Made by a program: the position numbers and the translations under genes. A DNA stretch of 58,476 nt from Victivallales bacterium (GTDB lineage Bacteria > Verrucomicrobiota > Lentisphaeria > Oligosphaerales > Oligosphaeraceae), in assembly GCA_017535315.1 (NCBI GenBank), contig JAFXUD010000032.1, positions 1 to 58,476 of the forward strand. Reading direction: 5' to 3'. Below, one piece after another: positions 15,177-55,020 of this stretch. Within the stretch, counting starts at the first letter, position 1. Each line of letters begins with the position of its first letter. The notes below the pieces were generated by a model. The model saw only the letters and a list, made by a program, of their open reading frames with translations. It was not told where the DNA came from and made no database searches.

Positions 15177-15382
15177 GTAATAATTCAGAAGGAGGGGCAC
15201 ACAGCCATGGTTTGCCAGATTTTCTGCGCCGTACCGCTTCGCTATGCTACGCGGCACGGCGCAAAGGAACTTGGTGTATCGCATGTCCGTGGGTTTCGCT
15301 CGCACCAAAGGTGCTCGCTTCACCCACGGCTATGTTCTTGCTGCCGCTACGCGGCTTACCCTTATGAACACTAACCACTTAC
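15177..15382. mobile_element. Degenerate GTAA-ended palindromic element (MITE copy)
   Basis: The element starts GTAATAATTCAGAAGG and ends near TTAC at 15382. It carries the same three internal hairpins as the copy at 43241-43439: TGCGCCGT.../...ACGGCGCA, CCGTGGGT.../...ACCCACGG, and GCCGCTACGCGGC. Flanking octamers (CACACTAT and CACTCTCT) match at 6 of 8 positions, weak support for an old target duplication. Its right end contains the stop codon of the BtuC-like gene. Confidence 0.75.
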
Positions 15383-39012: not shown

Positions 39013-42000
39013 TTATCTTTTGAGGAGGTTCTCCAAATCCTTGCGGGAAAAAGCAGATGGAGAACCTGTATCTTGGTCTATGACGGCGGAAGCCAGTTCG
39101 CGTTTGGCGTTTTGAAGCAGAATCACCTTCTCCTCGACGGTGTTTTTCGTCACGAGGCGATAGGCCATGACGGGATTTCGCTGTCCGATGCGATAAGCTC
39201 GGTCGATGGCCTGCGCCTCTGCGGCAGGGTTCCACCAGGGATCCATGATGAACACATAATCTGCCGCCGTCAAGTTCAGGCCGACGCCGCCTGCTTTTAG
39301 TGAGATGAGGAAGACCTTCTTTGTCTCGTCGTTTTGAAAACGTTCCACGACAGAAGCGCGGTCCTTTGTCTCGCCATCCAGGTAGCAGAAGTCCCATCCC
39401 GCTTCCTCCAACCTTGCCTGGATGATTTTCAAAAACGAGGTGAACTGTGAAAAGACCAGCGCCTTATGGCCTGCAAGGATGATGGTTTCCAGCCTGGTTG
39501 CCAGCAGTTCCAGCTTTGGCGAAGGCTCGTTGGCACGTTGCGGTTTCAGCAAGCCTGGATGGCAGGCGGCCTGCCTAAGTTTGGTGAGGGCTGCCAGTAT
39601 CAGCATGGAGGAGCCAGTCTTTTCGTCTGAGAGCTGCTTCTGATAGTAATGGAGAAGATCGTCGTACTCCTCCTGTTCCTCTGGCAGCATCTCGCAGAAG
39701 AGCAGCTGTTCCGACTTGGGGGGCAGGTCCTTGGCAACTTCAGCCTTCGTCCGTCGGAGGATAAAGGGACGGACGCCTTTTCTGATGCGGTTGATGACGG
39801 AGTTTTCGCTTGTGTTGCCTGGCGACGGAGCCAGGCAGAGGCTGGATCGCCCAAACAACCCTGGATTGAGAAAATCGAGCTGGCTGTAGAGTTCACCCAA
39901 GTTGTTTTCGATGGGAGTGCCCGTCATGGCAATTCTGTAGGATGCATGGATGCATCGTGCCGCCTGGGCCGTGGCGCTGTCGTGGTTTTTGATGGCCTGC
40001 GATTCATCCAGGACGCAGTAATCGAACATGACTTTGGCAAGTTTGGTTGCATCGTTCCGCAGTGTGCCGTATGTGGTGAGCACCAGGTCGTATTGTGAGA
40101 GCAGAGTAGGGGAGCAACTGCGCTCTGTGCCCAAATGAACGAGAAGCCGCATCCACGGAGCGAATCTTGCCGCCTCCACTTGCCAGTTGAAAATAAGGGA
40201 ACGCGGGAGGACAATCAGAGAAGGTCTGCGTTGCGGCAGTCTTGAGCGTTCGGCCAGCACCGCCAGTACCTGGATAGTTTTGCCGAGGCCCATGTCGTCC
40301 GCCAGGCAAGCACCAAGGCCAGCCTTTTGCATGTTCAGAAGCCAGCCGAATCCGATGGCCTGATAGTGGCGCAGAGTGGCCTTAAAACCATCGGGGGGAG
40401 AAACGGGATTGGGAGTACCCAGGGACTCAAATCTTCGAAGGGCTTCGCCATATTTGCCAGTTGCCTCTGATGCGCGGTCGCCCAGAATGGCGGCGACCAT
40501 GGCGGCTTGCTCCATGCGGAAACGCAGCTTGTCATCCTGCACATCGCCCAGTTCCGTTAGAGCGGTGAAGTTGGAGAGCCACTCCAGAGGGAGCAGACCA
40601 TAGGTGCCGTCATCCAGTCGCACTGCCTTTTCTCCTTTGGAAAAGGCGTTCAGCAATACGGGTAGTCCAACCGTTACGCCTTCATACGCCACTCCCCCAT
40701 CCACTTCAAACCAATCGACGCCAGATTTGACAACTGGCTGCTTGGTAATGGGTTTGCGGTAGGTTTTGCCTTCTGCCGTGACAATCCAGTCTTCCTGGAC
40801 AAGCGTCCTAACCACCTCGTCCAGTTGGGATGGATGTAGTTTCCAGCCAGGTTCCTCAATATAGGCTTTTTCGTTATAGCGAAAGCCAAGGGAGAGTAGG
40901 CGTGCGTGGAGGCGTTCCTCTTCCAGTGCGTCGCGTCGTATGATGCAATGCCCCTGTATAAGCCTGTCCCCGCCGTCGTCTGGGCAGGATACGCCATTGT
41001 ACAGGAATGTCAGGTCTGCGTGGAGCTGTTCGTGTTCGCGGTATTTGAACTTCGCTGTGCGGACGAAGAGTTCGCCGACGGGTTTGGCCTCCAGGTTTTT
41101 CAAGGCAATTCCAGGCGGAAAATCCTCCGTGTCGATGTCTGTTTCCGCCGCAAGGGTTCTGGCCAGGGAGAGGGCTTCTGGAAATGTGATGTGGAGAGAC
41201 GGCTTGTTCACAAATCGTGCCTCCAACAGGGAACCTGCACGTCGTGCGTCTGCATACAACAATGTGCCGCGTGCCAGTGCAACCGCCACAAGTTTGCCTT
41301 CCTGCGAGGAGTTCCCTTGCAATAGCATCTGCACCTCTGAAAAGGGGATATGTTCGCCGCCATGAAGCAATTCTGCCTGGACGAGATAGGTGGAGAGGGG
41401 AGAGCCAGGCTGGGGGATGAAGCGGATTATGGAATCAGCGGGCAGCCCCTCGTCAATGACGAGAGGGCGCATGACCAGCGAGCCGCTGCTATTGTCCATC
41501 CAACGGAGAACAGGGCATTTGGACAGTTTTTCGATGAGCGAGGCATCGCCCAGGGGAAAACGATAGCGGTTCGGCTCGTCTTCTGGCTTGTGGCATGGGG
41601 AGAGCAAACGCAGTAGGTCGGCATCCAGCGTGGATGGAAGAGCAGTGTCGGCTTCCACTATGAATGGCTTGGAGGCTGGCGGTTTTTCACCGCCATTGTT
41701 TTTGGGGCGCCATCGAAGGTCGATAATTAGAGTGTTGTCATTCGGCGTATGCTTATCGGCGCGAATGACATACAGTATCTCCAGGTTGAGCGTGTCATCG
41801 ACTGGATGCGAAGGGGCGGTGGTTTTGGGAGGGGAACGGAAAACTTGCCCGTAGTCGAGAATCCTTCCTTCCTCCTGGGTGATTCTACTACGCGCAGGAC
41901 GTTGTTTTTCAAAAAGTTCGTAGCGGGGGTCTTCTTGAGGAATCGAAGGTTTACTGGCAACCTGGAGTTTCCTTGGAACATTCTTCTGGAGGGATTTTCC

Positions 42001-42267
42001 CAGGTCTTCAAACTTGTCGGCTGTCAGTAATGTGGCCCAGATGTGTTTGCAGAGTTGCCCCGACGCAAATGCGGCGCAGGAACATGAGGGGACAAGAAAA
42101 CGTCCCTTCAACTCTAGGCTGCATTCCGTGTCATCGTCTTCTGGAAACGAACAGGATATTCGATCAAATGCCCCCCAATTGCGAACGGCATGAAGAAGCG
42201 TGCCGCTTGAGCGGGTTTCCTCCGTGAAATTGCTCTCGAATTTCTCGCTGGGTAACATCTCGGACAT
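39013..42267 (-). CDS. SWIM zinc-finger SNF2-family helicase
   Basis: The 1084-aa protein has an N-terminal SWIM zinc finger (PSCSCAAFASGQLCKHIWA, about 58-77), a long bacterial SNF2-associated middle region, and a C-terminal SNF2 ATPase. Motif I is DDMGLGKTIQVLAVLAE (near residue 660), motif II is VLDESQAIKN (DESQ where relatives usually have DEAQ), motif III is AMTGTPIENN, and motif VI is DRAYRIGQRNPVMAYRLV. These are double-stranded-DNA translocases that remodel protein-DNA complexes. It follows a Cas4/AddB-like nuclease gene by 11 bp, so both likely act together in repair or defence. No clear ribosome binding site is present. Confidence 0.92.
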   Translation of the reverse strand: MSEMLPSEKFESNFTEETRSSGTLLHAVRNWGAFDRISCSFPEDDDTECSLELKGRFLVPSCSCAAFASGQLCKHIWATLLTADKFEDLGKSLQKNVPRKLQVASKPSIPQEDPRYELFEKQRPARSRITQEEGRILDYGQVFRSPPKTTAPSHPVDDTLNLEILYVIRADKHTPNDNTLIIDLRWRPKNNGGEKPPASKPFIVEADTALPSTLDADLLRLLSPCHKPEDEPNRYRFPLGDASLIEKLSKCPVLRWMDNSSGSLVMRPLVIDEGLPADSIIRFIPQPGSPLSTYLVQAELLHGGEHIPFSEVQMLLQGNSSQEGKLVAVALARGTLLYADARRAGSLLEARFVNKPSLHITFPEALSLARTLAAETDIDTEDFPPGIALKNLEAKPVGELFVRTAKFKYREHEQLHADLTFLYNGVSCPDDGGDRLIQGHCIIRRDALEEERLHARLLSLGFRYNEKAYIEEPGWKLHPSQLDEVVRTLVQEDWIVTAEGKTYRKPITKQPVVKSGVDWFEVDGGVAYEGVTVGLPVLLNAFSKGEKAVRLDDGTYGLLPLEWLSNFTALTELGDVQDDKLRFRMEQAAMVAAILGDRASEATGKYGEALRRFESLGTPNPVSPPDGFKATLRHYQAIGFGWLLNMQKAGLGACLADDMGLGKTIQVLAVLAERSRLPQRRPSLIVLPRSLIFNWQVEAARFAPWMRLLVHLGTERSCSPTLLSQYDLVLTTYGTLRNDATKLAKVMFDYCVLDESQAIKNHDSATAQAARCIHASYRIAMTGTPIENNLGELYSQLDFLNPGLFGRSSLCLAPSPGNTSENSVINRIRKGVRPFILRRTKAEVAKDLPPKSEQLLFCEMLPEEQEEYDDLLHYYQKQLSDEKTGSSMLILAALTKLRQAACHPGLLKPQRANEPSPKLELLATRLETIILAGHKALVFSQFTSFLKIIQARLEEAGWDFCYLDGETKDRASVVERFQNDETKKVFLISLKAGGVGLNLTAADYVFIMDPWWNPAAEAQAIDRAYRIGQRNPVMAYRLVTKNTVEEKVILLQNAKRELASAVIDQDTGSPSAFSRKDLENLLKR

Positions 42268-42278
42268 GAGAGCGTCAG

Positions 42279-43223
42279 TTACTGTATGGCTGGGCAGACC
42301 CGCAGGAATGGGCAGGTGGAGCAGGTGTACTCGGAGGGATTGCAGGGGAAGTTCTCTTCGTCCGCCAAGTTTTTCTCCGTGTCCTGGAGTTTTCCCTTCA
42401 TGGCATTGAAGCTGACCTTGATTTGGTTCGTCACACCGTCAATGAGGGTCTGGTCTATCTGGTAGTCGGAGCGTCTGCCTCCATCATTAAGAAAAACGCC
42501 ATGGATGGCGATTCTGTCAATGGGGAAATGCAGGGTTTTAATGGCATAGAGCGCATAGCAGGCGAGTTGGAGGCGCAGTTGCGCAGGATGCTCCTTGCCT
42601 GTTTTCCAGTCGATGATGTGCAGGATGGAATCTGAATCAGTGTATGCGAAGTCAGGGCAGGCCCAGACCTTGATGTCGTCAAGCATGAAGAAGAGGTTTT
42701 CGTCAACGGGCTGCCATTGATTGCATGGCGTGGCAAGGATATCCTTGAGCACAGGCGTGTGCATGAAGGCGTCAAGGGCGGACATGACGCGCTCCTTGAT
42801 GGCATCGGTCTGTTCGCGGGGGAGTTTTTTGCACTCGCCGTAGTTTTCGCCATCGCCATAGTAGAGTTCGAAGAGATTGGTCTTCTTGGATGGGCGTGCT
42901 ACCCATTCCTTGTTGATGGTCTCCAGCCACCCTGAACGAAGAAGGAGCGTCGCATGTTCCTGAAGGGCGGGCAACGTTGGTGCTGTTCCCGTCGCCATAT
43001 ATTTCAGCAGGGCGTCCTTGATGGTGTCGTGTACAATGGTTCCCGCCCAGAGAATCATCGGCTTCACATTGCGCAAGATATGGAGAAGCTTTGCCTTGTC
43101 GTCGGCATCGGCTTTCCAGCCCCCCCAGTAGCCGTAGTATTTGTAGTAGTAGGCCCGCTGGCAACTTTGAAACAGGGAGGCCCTTGAGATGGACCATGTC
43201 AAATCGTTGGTAATTTCCGCCAT
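42279..43223 (-). CDS. PD-(D/E)XK nuclease with Fe-S cluster motif (Cas4/AddB-like)
   Basis: The 314-aa protein is a RecB-type nuclease: SISRASLFQSCQRAYYYKYYG at the N-terminus, the metal site CPDFAYTDSDSILHIIDWKTGK (Asp, then D-x-K), and a downstream QLRLQLACYALY helix with the conserved Gln. The N-terminal Cys of FQSCQ and three C-terminal cysteines in YTCSTCPFLRVCPA match the four-Cys 4Fe-4S arrangement of Cas4 and AddB. It is single-domain, without a helicase; the adjacent SNF2 helicase could serve. AGGA in the target duplication of the upstream element provides its ribosome binding site. Confidence 0.88.
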   Translation of the reverse strand: MAEITNDLTWSISRASLFQSCQRAYYYKYYGYWGGWKADADDKAKLLHILRNVKPMILWAGTIVHDTIKDALLKYMATGTAPTLPALQEHATLLLRSGWLETINKEWVARPSKKTNLFELYYGDGENYGECKKLPREQTDAIKERVMSALDAFMHTPVLKDILATPCNQWQPVDENLFFMLDDIKVWACPDFAYTDSDSILHIIDWKTGKEHPAQLRLQLACYALYAIKTLHFPIDRIAIHGVFLNDGGRRSDYQIDQTLIDGVTNQIKVSFNAMKGKLQDTEKNLADEENFPCNPSEYTCSTCPFLRVCPAIQ

Positions 43224-43240
43224 GATTATGATTCCTGTTT

Positions 43241-43439
43241 GTAACTATTCAGAAGAGGAGCAAATTGGCACTGGTTGCCAGATTTTTCTGCGCCGTGCCA
43301 CTCCGCTGCGCTACGCGGTACAGCGCAAAGGAATTGTGAGTATTGCCTGTCCGTGGGTTTCGCTCGCGCCAGAGGCGCTCGCTCCACCCACGGCTAGGCT
43401 CTTGCCGCCGCTACGCGGCTTACCCTTTTGAATAGTTAC
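43241..43439. mobile_element. GTAA-ended palindromic MITE with 8-bp target duplication (IS66-like)
   Basis: The element starts GTAACTATTCAGAAG and ends CTTTTGAATAGTTAC, 15-bp inverted repeats with one mismatch. TCCTGTTT lies immediately outside both ends (43233-43240 and 43440-43447). GTAA termini and 8-bp duplications are the known hallmarks of IS66-family transposition. Inside are three strong hairpins and no coding sequence. It separates rlmN from the nuclease gene; removing it and one octamer gives an rlmN stop two bases before the nuclease ATG. Confidence 0.92.
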
Positions 43440-44515
43440 TCCTGTTTTTTCTTTGTATCAGCCTCTGGTTGGTGTTTTTCCTCGCCCTTTCGGGCGACGA
43501 GCTGTCCGCATGCCGCCTTGATTTTGTCACCTTTTCGCAGGCGGATGGTGGCCTGGATGCCGTATGAAGTGAGGGTGTCCAGGAACTTGTGGCATTGTTC
43601 CTTTGCAGGTGCTTTCCAGGTAGTCGAACTGCTGTTAAGGGGAATCAGATTGACCTTGGCGTGTGTCAAACGCGCCAGTTTGGCCAGATCCCTTGCGTTG
43701 GTTTCGGATGAGTTGATTCCGTCGATGAGGACGTATTCAAAGGTGATCATGCGCCCAGTGGCCTCGTTGTAGGCAGCGCACGCTTCCAGAATTTGGCGAA
43801 TGGGGTGCCGATTCTTTTCGGGGATGAGTTGCGCACGGATTCTGTCATTGGGGGCATGCAGAGAAAGGGCCAGGTTCCATGGACGTTTCTGGTCGGCCAG
43901 GCGGCGGATGCCGTTTGGGATGCCGCTGGTTGAAACGGTGATATTTCGTGCACTGATGCTAAGCCCATTTTCTGCGCTGCATAAAAAGTTCAATGCTGGT
44001 ATGAGGTTGTCCAGATTGAACATGGGTTCGCCTGTGCCCATGACGACCACGTTATCGACACGCTTGCCGAGTTCATGGGAGGCAAGGATGACCTGGTCGA
44101 TGATTTCAATGGTTTTCAAGTTGCGCACGAATCCAAGACGTCCGCTTTCACAGAATGCACAGCGCACAGGGCAGCCAACCTGCGTGCTGATACAGACGGT
44201 GCTGCGTTCGGGGGCACGTATCAGAACGGTCTCGACTTTGGTACCGTCAAAGAGTTCAGAGGCCCATTTGACAGTGCCGTCTTCGGCATGAAGCGTGGTG
44301 GCGGGATTCAGGGAAGACGGGGCGAAATCCTGCGCCAGTTCTTCACGTAGGCTTTTGGGTACATTCGCCATGTCATCGAAGGTGACGGCCAGTTTGCTGA
44401 AGAACCAGTCGTGTATCTGCTGGAATCTGAATTGCGGCTGGTTGTGGGCCTTGAGCCATTCGGAAAGCTCACGTTCGTCAAGCTCGCGTATTGATTTTTT
44501 GTTTGTGGCTGGCAT
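43436..44515 (-). CDS. rlmN: 23S rRNA (adenine-2503-C2)-methyltransferase RlmN
   Basis: The 359-aa radical-SAM enzyme has the cluster motif C115-x3-C119-x2-C122 (VGCPVRCAFC), VVMGTGEPMFNLDNL, NLALSLHAPNDRIRAQLIPE and VLIDGINSSETNARDLA. The methyl-accepting Cys336 is in IKAACGQLVARKG. It methylates A2503 of 23S rRNA (and A37 of some tRNAs). Its TAA stop is formed by the GTAA end of the inserted palindromic element; the reconstructed ancestral C-terminus would be one residue longer (QES instead of QE). It belongs to the glycosyltransferase-rlmN-nuclease-SNF2 minus-strand unit. Confidence 0.95.
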   Translation of the reverse strand: MPATNKKSIRELDERELSEWLKAHNQPQFRFQQIHDWFFSKLAVTFDDMANVPKSLREELAQDFAPSSLNPATTLHAEDGTVKWASELFDGTKVETVLIRAPERSTVCISTQVGCPVRCAFCESGRLGFVRNLKTIEIIDQVILASHELGKRVDNVVVMGTGEPMFNLDNLIPALNFLCSAENGLSISARNITVSTSGIPNGIRRLADQKRPWNLALSLHAPNDRIRAQLIPEKNRHPIRQILEACAAYNEATGRMITFEYVLIDGINSSETNARDLAKLARLTHAKVNLIPLNSSSTTWKAPAKEQCHKFLDTLTSYGIQATIRLRKGDKIKAACGQLVARKGEEKHQPEADTKKKQE

Positions 44516-44587
44516 AAAACTGAAAATGAAAAAGATTTAGGGCGTCCTGAATATATGGAATGATATCGAGTTGAAAAATGATTTCTT

Positions 44588-44920
44588 GTAACTATACAGA
44601 TGGGGCATCTCAGGAGGGGGATAATCCACTTTGTTTTCTGCGCCTTGCCGCTCCGCTGCGCTACGCGGCACGGCGCAAAGGAACTGGGGGTATCGCCTGC
44701 CCGTGGGTTTCGCTCGCGCCAGAGGCGCTCGCTTCACCCACGGCTATGTTCTTGTCGCCGCTAACGCGGCTCTTTCTGCGCCTTGCCGCTCCGCTGCGCT
44801 ACGCGGCACGGCGCAAAGGATGAGTAGGTGCCCGTGGGTTTCGCTCGCGCCAGAGGCGCTCGCTTCATCCACGGCTATGTTCTTTCCGCCGCTACGCGGC
44901 TTTCCATTCGAAATAATTAC
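44588..44920. mobile_element. GTAA-ended palindromic MITE with internally duplicated core
   Basis: The element starts GTAACTATACAGATG and ends CGAAATAATTAC. Flanking octamers GATTTCTT (44580-44587) and GATTACTT (44921-44928) match at 7 of 8 positions. The hairpin core (starting CGCCTTGCCGCTCCGC) is present twice, at 44641 and 44779, a 138-bp internal duplication. It lies between the glycosyltransferase gene and rlmN, next to the glycosyltransferase stop codon. Confidence 0.88.
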
Positions 44921-44922
44921 GA

Positions 44923-46701
44923 TTACTTTTTCAATTCGCCTCGGTAGAGTTTAAGTTCGGGGAGTCCCTGGTAGGTTTTTTGCGCAGGAACAGTTTCCGC
45001 ATGAAACTCAAGAAGGGGGCGTGTGCCCTGAATCGCAATGCTGACATTGCGGTGTGTTCCAAGAGGAGCGTGCCTGCTGAGGGAGGTCCATTCTCGCTTG
45101 GTGTCTGCTGGCAGGAATGGACTGAGAAGGAAAACCACCTTTTCCTGGTCGGGAAGTTCTGTAGCAAGGTCGCTTATCTGACGGATGGGAGCCTGCATAT
45201 AGAAGGTTTCGACCAAAGTGGCATTGCGCTGTTTGCCGTTTGAGAGCACCATGTAGATTTTGGAGATGTTTTCCTTTTCCATGCTTTTTTTCAATGGGAC
45301 TGGATGCAAATAGCCGAAGGCACTTGAAGCGAGCATTGGGATATCCTCTGCGTGACAGGCGAGGGTCATCCCGTTTATCTCACGGTCCATATTATAGCAG
45401 TGCCTGAAGACCGAGAGGGTGCTGACACCAAGGATGGCCCATACGAAAATCGACAGCAGAAGCATAGTGCGGAAGGAACGGGACTCCTTTTTGTTGAAAA
45501 GCAGAATGGCTGTTGTAATGGCGGATGACAAGGCGCAAATAAGGCAGAAGATGCTGTTGGTCTGGCTGAAGTCGTCAAAATGCACGATATTGACGAATGT
45601 GGCGGCCCAGAAAAAACAAAGAACGCATGCAACCAGGAAGCAAAGGCGGTTGCTGATAGTGAGAAGCCAGCCGAAGAAATCTTTGTAGCGCCTGATGACG
45701 ATTTCAGAATAGACGCCAATCAGCACTGCCATTGGACCGAAGACGGGAAGCAAGTGGAGCGGAGAACCTCCAGGCATCAGCCAAAAGATGACGGCATTGG
45801 TTACGACTATGGCGCGGAGAAAGCGGCATGCGTATGTTTCGTTTTCGAATTGTCGTAGTGCAAGGCAGAAAGGCGCCCAAGCGAGAAAAGTCCAGGGGAA
45901 GAGGTAGCAGAGTATTTTGGGCAACATGCTGACGAGATGTCGGCAGTAACTTCCAAAACTTTCTGGCGACCTGACGACGGACAGGGCGTTCCAGGGCATG
46001 AAGGGCTGCTCTGGAATGTAGTATATCCAGAGCGAAAGGCAGAGTGCCAGCAGAAAACAGAGAAAAAGGTGAGGTCTGGACTGGAGAAAGTCAACGCTTC
46101 GCAATCGGTGTCCCATGAAGAAATAGGGCGCATAGAAGATAATGACGGCCTTGACGCCAGTGCCGAAGGAGGCCAGCAGCACCAGAAGCAGCGCCAGTCC
46201 CCAGGCAAGCCACCAGCGATGCGCCTTCCAGCCCTGAAGATAGGTGATGTACCATGCCAGCGAGAGAAGCGCGGAAACCACCATGTCGTTGTGCGCCGTC
46301 AATGCCGTGCGAAAGCTCAGGACGCTTGTTAGGGTGACAGCGGTGGCTATTAGCCCTGCATATGACGACTGCACCTTTCTTGCCATGATTCCACTGGAAA
46401 TGGCCAAAACAAAAAGCGACAGCACAGATGGCAGGCGAAAGGTGAAGAGATTGGGCTGCCTGAAAAACGAACAAATTACGGCACACCATGAATACAAGGG
46501 GAAGCCAGGAACGTGGTGGCCGTAGATAAGGGTCCTGAAAATGGAGTGCCCCGCCGCGAAATCCTGCGCGAAAGCACCGAGCAGGGCTTCGTCGCTGAAA
46601 CGGATTTCGCTTATCCCAAGTCCCAGAAGATAAACCGTGGCAGTTGTCACAAGCAGCAAAAACATGCTGCGCCAAGTTGGCTTTGTGTCAATGATTATCA
46701 T
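44923..46701 (-). CDS. GT39/ArnT-like membrane glycosyltransferase
   Basis: The 592-aa protein has about ten or more membrane segments in its first 430 residues and a soluble C-terminal part. The N-terminal loop IRFSDEALLGAFAQDF contains the Asp-Glu pair expected in lipid-phosphate-sugar-dependent (GT-C, PMT/ArnT) transferases; HHVPGFPLYSW and FRLPSVLSLFV follow as in that family. It would transfer a sugar from a polyprenyl carrier on the periplasmic side. The TAA stop lies in the target-duplication octamer next to the palindromic element; the alternative octamer would let the frame run 15 residues further. The ribosome binding site is weak. Confidence 0.82.
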   Translation of the reverse strand: MIIIDTKPTWRSMFLLLVTTATVYLLGLGISEIRFSDEALLGAFAQDFAAGHSIFRTLIYGHHVPGFPLYSWCAVICSFFRQPNLFTFRLPSVLSLFVLAISSGIMARKVQSSYAGLIATAVTLTSVLSFRTALTAHNDMVVSALLSLAWYITYLQGWKAHRWWLAWGLALLLVLLASFGTGVKAVIIFYAPYFFMGHRLRSVDFLQSRPHLFLCFLLALCLSLWIYYIPEQPFMPWNALSVVRSPESFGSYCRHLVSMLPKILCYLFPWTFLAWAPFCLALRQFENETYACRFLRAIVVTNAVIFWLMPGGSPLHLLPVFGPMAVLIGVYSEIVIRRYKDFFGWLLTISNRLCFLVACVLCFFWAATFVNIVHFDDFSQTNSIFCLICALSSAITTAILLFNKKESRSFRTMLLLSIFVWAILGVSTLSVFRHCYNMDREINGMTLACHAEDIPMLASSAFGYLHPVPLKKSMEKENISKIYMVLSNGKQRNATLVETFYMQAPIRQISDLATELPDQEKVVFLLSPFLPADTKREWTSLSRHAPLGTHRNVSIAIQGTRPLLEFHAETVPAQKTYQGLPELKLYRGELKK

Positions 46702-48131: not shown

Positions 48132-48154
48132 ACGGATTGTGTGGAAAAAAAAGG

Positions 48155-48515
48155 AATTATTTACTTTAGTTGCCGAATAGACTTCACCAACAGAGAAGAG
48201 CCGCGATAGCGGCGGCAGGAGCATAGCCGTGGGTGGAGCGAAGCCGCGATAGCGGCGGCAGGAGCATAGCCGTGGGTGGCGCGAAGCCGCGATAGCGGCG
48301 GCAGGAGCATAGCCGTGGGTGGAGCGAAGCCGCGATAGCGGCGGCAGGAGCATAGCCGTGGGTGGAGCGAAGCCGCGATAGCGGCGAAGCGAAACCCACG
48401 GTCAGATGCCCCCCCAGTCCCTGTGCGCCGTGCCGCGTAGCGCAGCGAAGCGGCAAGGCGCATCCTGGCCATCGGCCAGTGAGGAACAATGTCATCAGGA
48501 AACTCAAGTATATAA
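48155..48515 (-). repeat. Palindromic repeat element with 43-bp tandem array, five copies
   Basis: CCGCGATAGCGGCG starts at 48201, 48244, 48287, 48330 and 48373, an exact 43-bp period. On the minus strand each unit carries CCCACGGCTATG and the GCCGCTATCGCGGC hairpin, the same core found in the GTAA-ended elements. The left end (TTAGTTGCCGAATAGACTTCACC) matches, in reverse, the right end of the element at 54801. The TGCGCCTTGCCGC/GCGGCACGGCGCA hairpin closes the right side. The rest of 48021-48824 holds only the repeat at 48545 and the leader of the next gene. Confidence 0.92.
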
Positions 48516-48544
48516 TTCCCCCCAAAAAAGCAATTGGCAAAAAT

Positions 48545-51661: not shown

Positions 51662-52214
51662 GCGACAGAAAAAACGCCGCGTTAGCGGCGACAGAGTATA
51701 GCCGTGGGCAAACGTAGCCGCGCAAGCGGCGAGCGCAGCCCACGGTACGAAGGGTATTTATGATTTCAGCCGCGATAGCGGCGACAGAGTATAGCCGTGG
51801 GCAAGCGTAGCCGCGTAGCGGCGAGCGCAGCCCCCGGTACGAAGGGTATTTATGATTTCAAGCCGCAATAGCGGCGACAGAGTATAGCCGTGGGCAAGTG
51901 AAGACGCGTAGCGTCGAGCGCAGCCCACGGTACGAAGGGTAATTATGATTTCAAGCCGCGTTAGCGGCGACAGAGTATAGCCGTGGGCAAGTGAAGACGC
52001 GTAGCGTCGAGCGCAGCCCCCGGTACGAAGGGTATTTTTGATTTCAGCCGCGATAGCGGCGACAGAGTATAGCCGTGGGCAAGCGTAGCCGCGCAAGCGT
52101 CGAGCGCAGCCCCCCGGTACGAAGGGTATTTATGATTTCAGCCGCGATAGCGGCGACAGAGTATAGCCGTGGGCAAGCGTAGCCGCGCAAGCGGCGAGCG
52201 CAGCCCACGGCCTC
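51662..52214 (-). repeat. 93-bp tandem repeat array, six copies
   Basis: ACAGAGTATAGCCGTGGGC occurs at 51691, 51784, 51877, 51970, 52062 and 52156, steps of 92-94 bp. Each unit holds GCCGCGATAGCGGC, a CCGTGGGC...GCCCACGG (or CCCCCGG) hairpin and a spacer CGGTACGAAGGGTATTTATGATTTCA. Units differ by a few substitutions, some paired across stems (GTAGCCGCGTAGCGGCGAG against GAAGACGCGTAGCGTCGAG). Minus-strand open frames here arise only because 93 is a multiple of three. Confidence 0.95.
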
Positions 52215-52234
52215 CCCCAAAAAATGCATTCAAG

Positions 52235-54800: not shown

Positions 54801-55020
54801 GTAACTATTCAGAAGGGGCATATTGGCACAGACTGCAAGTTTTTATGCGCCGTGCCGCTCCGCTTCGCTATGCGGCACGGCGCACGGGGACTGGGGGTAT
54901 TGTCTGCCCGTGGGTTTCGCTCGCGCCAGAGGCGCTCACTCCACCCACGGCTAAATTCTTGTCGCCGCTTACGCGGCTCTTATCTGTGGGTAAAGTCCAA
55001 TCGGCAACTAAAGTATATAA
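54801..55020. mobile_element. GTAA-ended palindromic element, one altered end
   Basis: It starts GTAACTATTCAGAAGGGGCA and carries the TGCGCCGTGCCGC, CCGTGGGTTTCG and GCCGCTTACGCGGC hairpins. The right end lacks the GAATAGTTAC terminus and instead reads GTAAAGTCCAATCGGCAACT, shared (reversed) with the left border of the 48155-48515 repeat. It may be a rearranged or composite copy. Confidence 0.8.

Follow-up and report, generated by a model that had tools for sequence, protein, structure and literature searches.

A 199-bp non-coding element inserted between rlmN and a nuclease gene of a Victivallales bacterium is very probably a non-autonomous MITE of the IS66 family, ISBst12 group. This assignment, drawn from sequence comparison, follows from four observations taken together: termini of the ISBst12 type, an 8-bp target-site duplication, many diverged copies in the same genome, and an empty site in a member of the same genus. 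The interior of the element folds into three hairpins, and this core also occurs at many positions that lack the ends of the element.

The stretch of DNA analyzed here, called the window, is the 58,476 nucleotides of contig JAFXUD010000032.1, and its host is an uncultured gut-type bacterium. The coordinates of the features discussed are collected in Table 1, where family A denotes the element and its relatives with the same ends.

Table 1. Positions of genes and element features in the window
Feature	Positions	Strand	Basis
SNF2-type helicase, after nuclease	39013..42267	-	
PD-(D/E)XK nuclease (PF12705), next gene in run after rlmN	42279..43223	-	
Target-site duplication copy 1, TCCTGTTT	43233..43240	.	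Direct sequence reading
Probable IS66/ISBst12-type MITE of family A, 199 bp, non-coding	43241..43439	.	Inverted ends, 8-bp duplication, 55 near-full genome relatives
Terminal inverted repeat GTAACTATTCAGAAG	43241..43255	+	Repeat analysis, family consensus
Core hairpin 3 (TTTGCGCC...GGCGCAG)	43288..43329	-	Consensus structure
Core hairpin 2 (CCGTGGGT...ACCCACGG)	43351..43393	-	Consensus structure and inverted-repeat search
Core hairpin 1 (GCCGCG...GCGGC)	43407..43419	-	Consensus structure
Terminal inverted repeat GTAACTATTCAAAAG (end also read as CTTTTGAATAGTTAC)	43425..43439	-	
Target-site duplication copy 2, TCCTGTTT	43440..43447	.	Direct sequence reading
rlmN (radical SAM + RlmN_N), 359 aa	43436..44515	-	ORF list, domain match
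Second element of family A (333 bp) with a duplicated interior core	44588..44920	.	Between rlmN and upstream gene
Gene preceding rlmN in the run, without a Pfam match	44923..46701	-	G001 orthologue adjoins rlmN
Third family-A copy	15177..15375	.	
Fourth family-A copy, right end truncated	54801..54978	.	

An element at the junction of rlmN and the nuclease gene

The original prediction placed a 199-bp element with inverted ends and an exact octamer duplication at positions 43224-43460. Direct reading of the sequence bears out the element, its ends and the octamers; the range itself includes flanking DNA, and the element proper spans 43241-43439. Its inverted ends, GTAACTATTC and GAATAGTTAC, are 15 nt long and 93% complementary, and the element is short, non-coding and bounded by terminal inverted repeats, as a MITE should be. 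The three strong hairpins proposed to lie between the genes are reflected in the predicted fold, which on the plus strand reaches -96.4 kcal/mol compared with -71.5 kcal/mol in shuffled sequences (z -5.5), and which on the operon strand departs from shuffles with z -4.8. Rfam covariance models searched against positions 43100-45000 gave no match up to E = 1.

At the occupied locus rlmN ends ...KKKQE*, and its present stop codon, the TAA at 43436-43438, lies within the terminal inverted repeat, so that the tip of the element supplies the stop as had been proposed. Joining the flanks without the element and one octamer gives rlmN ...KKKQES*, then TC, then the nuclease ATG, which reproduces the proposed ancestral junction exactly. 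Both reading frames remain intact, in agreement with the view that the insertion was almost damage-free. The first copy of the duplication reads AAACAGGA on the operon strand and leaves the nuclease its original upstream 17 nt; the AGGA within it, which precedes the nuclease ATG by about 9 nt (both distances read from the sequence), is a plausible ribosome site. A stop codon supplied by the tip was rejected as a special property of the element, since any tip stops one frame in three; 13 of the 53 family-A copies considered could end an open run of 200 nt or more in this way, a count that includes spurious open frames.

The prediction also held that the element splits an operon, a split that is established in the physical sense only: on the operon strand no intrinsic terminator was found within the element, and the upstream region of the nuclease gene is retained. 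Two terminator-like sites are present in the element, both on the strand opposite to the operon, and a transcription terminator acting on the operon strand was rejected on this ground.

An empty site in a sister species

A search of related genomes for an empty site, as had been suggested, was successful in G001, a member of the same genus. Here the rlmN and nuclease orthologues (82% and 84% identical, respectively) are adjacent, rlmN ends ...GATAAGAAATAATGG (AAATAATGG) with a stop that overlaps the nuclease start (TAATG), and the family-A profile detects no element anywhere in the locus. The C-terminal tail of rlmN is not conserved in G001, which makes a comparison of the last residue by orthology impossible, and the more distant family members examined keep rlmN and the nuclease apart, so that G001 is the only informative outgroup.

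The second family-A element in the window lies at the neighboring junction of this gene run, on the upstream side of rlmN. The duplication around it is imperfect (gatttctt/gattactt, 7/8), and the stop codon of the upstream gene falls inside its octamer, 2 bp from the element. In G001 the orthologue of this upstream gene (79% identical) ends about 14 nt before rlmN, and the second element is absent. Either two adjacent junctions in this compact run of genes were entered in the window lineage, or their elements were lost in the other; the intact octamers favor insertion over loss in G001.

A dispersed family that makes 8-bp duplications

The element matches 85 places in its own genome, the weakest by the tips only, and the family-A tip pattern occurs there 119 times compared with 3 for a reversed control. 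Among the loci fetched from this genome are 55 distinct copies that are close to full length (180-215 bp), and the mean pairwise identity within the family is about 83% (alignment of 60 rows). When the ends were paired and the duplication was taken to be 8 bp long, agreement between the flanks was 64%, compared with roughly 27-35% at other lengths from 2 to 12; perfect octamers border 14 of the 68 pairs, which were made automatically and include a few spurious pairings. Family A makes 8-bp duplications, and the copy at rlmN is among those still perfect. The constant duplication length, the many dispersed copies and the empty sites are all features of a MITE family.

Copies of family A are concentrated near gene ends: 31 of 53, as opposed to 12 of 95 points drawn at random from the same loci, lie no more than 60 nt from the end of an open run. 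The measure is a rough one that uses open runs of 240 nt or more in place of gene calls. Such a bias is as expected if harmful insertions get lost. At one further locus (L028, G000:C49:123849-125147) the family-A element is arranged as tandem units of about 103 bp, each starting with a GTAACTATTC-like tip.

A hairpin core shared by several scaffolds

The core hairpin motif YATAGCCGTGGG has 239 occurrences in the genome of the window organism compared with 3 for a control, and is far rarer in relatives. Its settings were examined at 41 loci away from family-A tips, consisting of 40 fetched loci and positions 48150-48535 of the window. At 29 of the 41 the core sits in a second scaffold, B, mostly 240-241 bp long, with ends GGGAATTATATACTT...AAGTATATAATTCCC that are unrelated to those of family A; scaffold B tips occur 165 times in the genome and not once in the control, and an 8-bp duplication is again indicated, with 78% agreement at length 8 and perfect octamers at 9 of the 29 loci. 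The copy at 48150-48535 is a MITE of this second scaffold, with ends GGAATTATTTACTT/AAGTATATAATTCCC, the same hairpin core and an expanded internal repeat. A few loci (L186, L195 and L204) belong to a rarer scaffold, C, with ends GTAATCCCTC.../...GAGGGATTAC, and L186 is flanked by an exact 8-bp duplication, TATCGATC. The core stands alone directly after stop codons at L220 and L221, and two more of the 41 loci (L209 and L212) are diverged family-A copies. Elsewhere in the window, an intergenic stretch at 51664-52230 holds about six hairpin modules in tandem with a period of about 93 bp and is free of transposon ends.

Within family A the core stems are the most conserved columns (98%), followed by the outer 12 bases (94%) and the rest of the interior (84%), and 97% of the predicted core pairs are kept. 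Pairs with changes on both sides number 7 compared with 2.7 in shuffles, and covariation contributes a term of -0.44 to the consensus fold. Covariation was dropped as proof of RNA function because this term is small, and stem conservation alone is claimed. That conservation could be the result of selection on the stems, of conversion among copies, or of descent from few sources.

It is possible, if somewhat doubtful, that a three-hairpin cassette of about 137 bp is carried by several MITEs with unrelated ends and has spread to hundreds of positions, gene ends included, with its stems under selection and the ends acting as exchangeable carriers of a core that is either functional or selfish. 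A stronger version would make the core itself the mobile unit, REP-like, with the GTAAC ends as only one wrapper, and would have it moved or maintained by an enzyme such as a Y1 (RAYT-like) transposase. The excess of core motifs over the 119 family-A tips speaks for it, as do the second and third scaffolds, the solitary cores after stops and the tandem arrays, and the genome contains three Y1 (PF01797) transposase genes (L226-L228, on G000 C47, C58 and C78). At rlmN, however, the inserted unit is bounded exactly by GTAAC tips and an 8-bp duplication, which is the behavior of a DDE transposase and not of a Y1 enzyme, and we consider this version improbable.

Termini and probable IS66 parentage

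The preferred reading, an IS66-type MITE, is supported by elements that carry a transposase. IS66 transposases (PF03050 + DUF6444) that share 68% identity are enclosed by GTAACTATTCAGAAC ends in G002 (Victivallales bacterium RGIG3456, from goat rumen, of the same genus as the window organism) and in G005 (Lentisphaerae bacterium ADurb.Bin082, of the same family). The element in G005 is complete, 2161 bp long with both tips present, and has no recognizable target duplication. The MITE tip, with its GTAA end, is identical to both over 14 bases, after which the relatives read AAC instead of AAG, and the likeness is limited to the ends. No autonomous element was found with the exact MITE tip GTAACTATTCAGAAGG, which continues AAGG. 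Autonomous relatives carry one large DDE transposase plus a small upstream ORF. Paired ends that match each other at no fewer than 11 of 12 bases and resemble GT(A/G)ACTATTCAG were found in 13 of 28 related loci from many phyla, and exact 8-bp duplications flank L160, L169, L170 and L173, as they do family-A copies. The IS66 elements of G008 are of another type, without a GTAACTATTCAGAAC-like tip. ISDge4, a member of the single-ORF ISBst12 group of IS66 whose transposition has been observed, has ends GTGACTACTCAGCA/GTAACTGCTCAGCA and an 8-bp repeat (PMC12898284). The ISBst12-type tips in G002 and G005 refine to the ISBst12 group what had been called IS66-like from ends and duplication.

The search for a full IS66 element with a matching tip, also suggested at the outset, thus failed in the window organism's own assembly and succeeded in G002 and G005. 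That assembly, 95.6% complete, contains no IS66 transposase (PF03050 or a close relative) by profile or protein, and hence no DDE_Tnp_IS66 enzyme able to act in trans on the MITE. Both searches were genome-wide, and their negative outcome extends to longer elements that might start from the lone tips. A transposase in the same genome is needed for present mobility and not for descent; the mobilizer may have been lost, may be unassembled, or may be external to the genome. With no mobilizer detectable in its own genome, to call the element mobile is a statement about its past.

In G003, which belongs to a different genus of the family, four loci (L150-L153) hold another type of MITE whose two ends differ, one being GTAACTATTCAGAAGG and the other GTATCTATTCAGAACCCC. 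Having both tip variants, it is possibly a link between the MITE tips and an IS66 parent.

An 8-bp target duplication is not unique to IS66. The element could therefore derive from some other DDE family that makes one (for example the IS256, ISL3, IS1595 or IS6 types), a reading in keeping with the absence of an IS66 transposase from the genome and rendered very unlikely by the identity of the MITE tip, over 14 bases, to the tips of IS66 elements that carry a transposase in the same genus and family. The last alternative, a native regulatory RNA of the rlmN-nuclease intergenic region with a coincidental octamer repeat, could appeal to the strong fold and conserved stems and is refuted by the copies scattered over the genome and by the unoccupied site in G001, with the family-wide 8-bp duplications and the want of an Rfam match also against it.

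Proposed history and comparison with known systems

On the IS66 reading, an ISBst12-type transposase would once have been present in the lineage and recognized GTAACTATTCAG ends, and the element would have inserted with an 8-bp stagger across the 3' end of rlmN. Its G-TAA tip would shorten rlmN by one codon. The nuclease would regain its own upstream sequence, with the putative AGGA ribosome site, from the duplicated octamer, so that both proteins would survive. The original 2-nt stop/start junction would have given way to about 210 nt of structured spacer. Transcription across the element may continue, and the effect, as judged from the sequence, is probably a loss of translational coupling with altered mRNA folding or stability, and not termination. 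Insertions would persist where they do little harm and copies would pile up at gene ends, a picture into which the second copy, one junction away in the gene run, fits.

Family A resembles the ISBst12 group (e.g. ISDge4, PMC12898284) in its GT(A/G)ACT..TCAG tip type and 8-bp duplication, and differs in that the 199-bp element is about one-tenth the length and lacks any gene. Like the bacterial MITEs Chunjie, ERIC and Correia (PMC10969869), it is short, non-coding and folded, has inverted ends and a duplication, and occurs in many, mostly intergenic copies; unlike them, it has ISBst12-type ends and a folded interior common to other MITE scaffolds. IS66 is unmentioned in that review of bacterial MITEs (PMC10969869). 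With REP/BIME elements (PMC2817692) it has in common GC-rich palindromes, a high copy number, arrangement in tandem and, for some copies, positions directly 3' of genes; the copy at the rlmN junction is set apart by transposon ends and a target duplication.

Implications

The junction shows cleanly how a mini-transposon can enter a tightly packed operon and leave it almost undamaged: the tip serves as a stop codon, the duplication restores the upstream sequence of the next gene, and the empty site is preserved in a sister species. It also documents a MITE family of the IS66/ISBst12 type in Lentisphaerota. As a new MITE family the element is ordinary in kind, and the core that it shares with other scaffolds is modestly surprising and a more interesting lead than the original finding. 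That such a core is common to several scaffolds raises the question of whether it is cargo, a parasite or a useful RNA signal.
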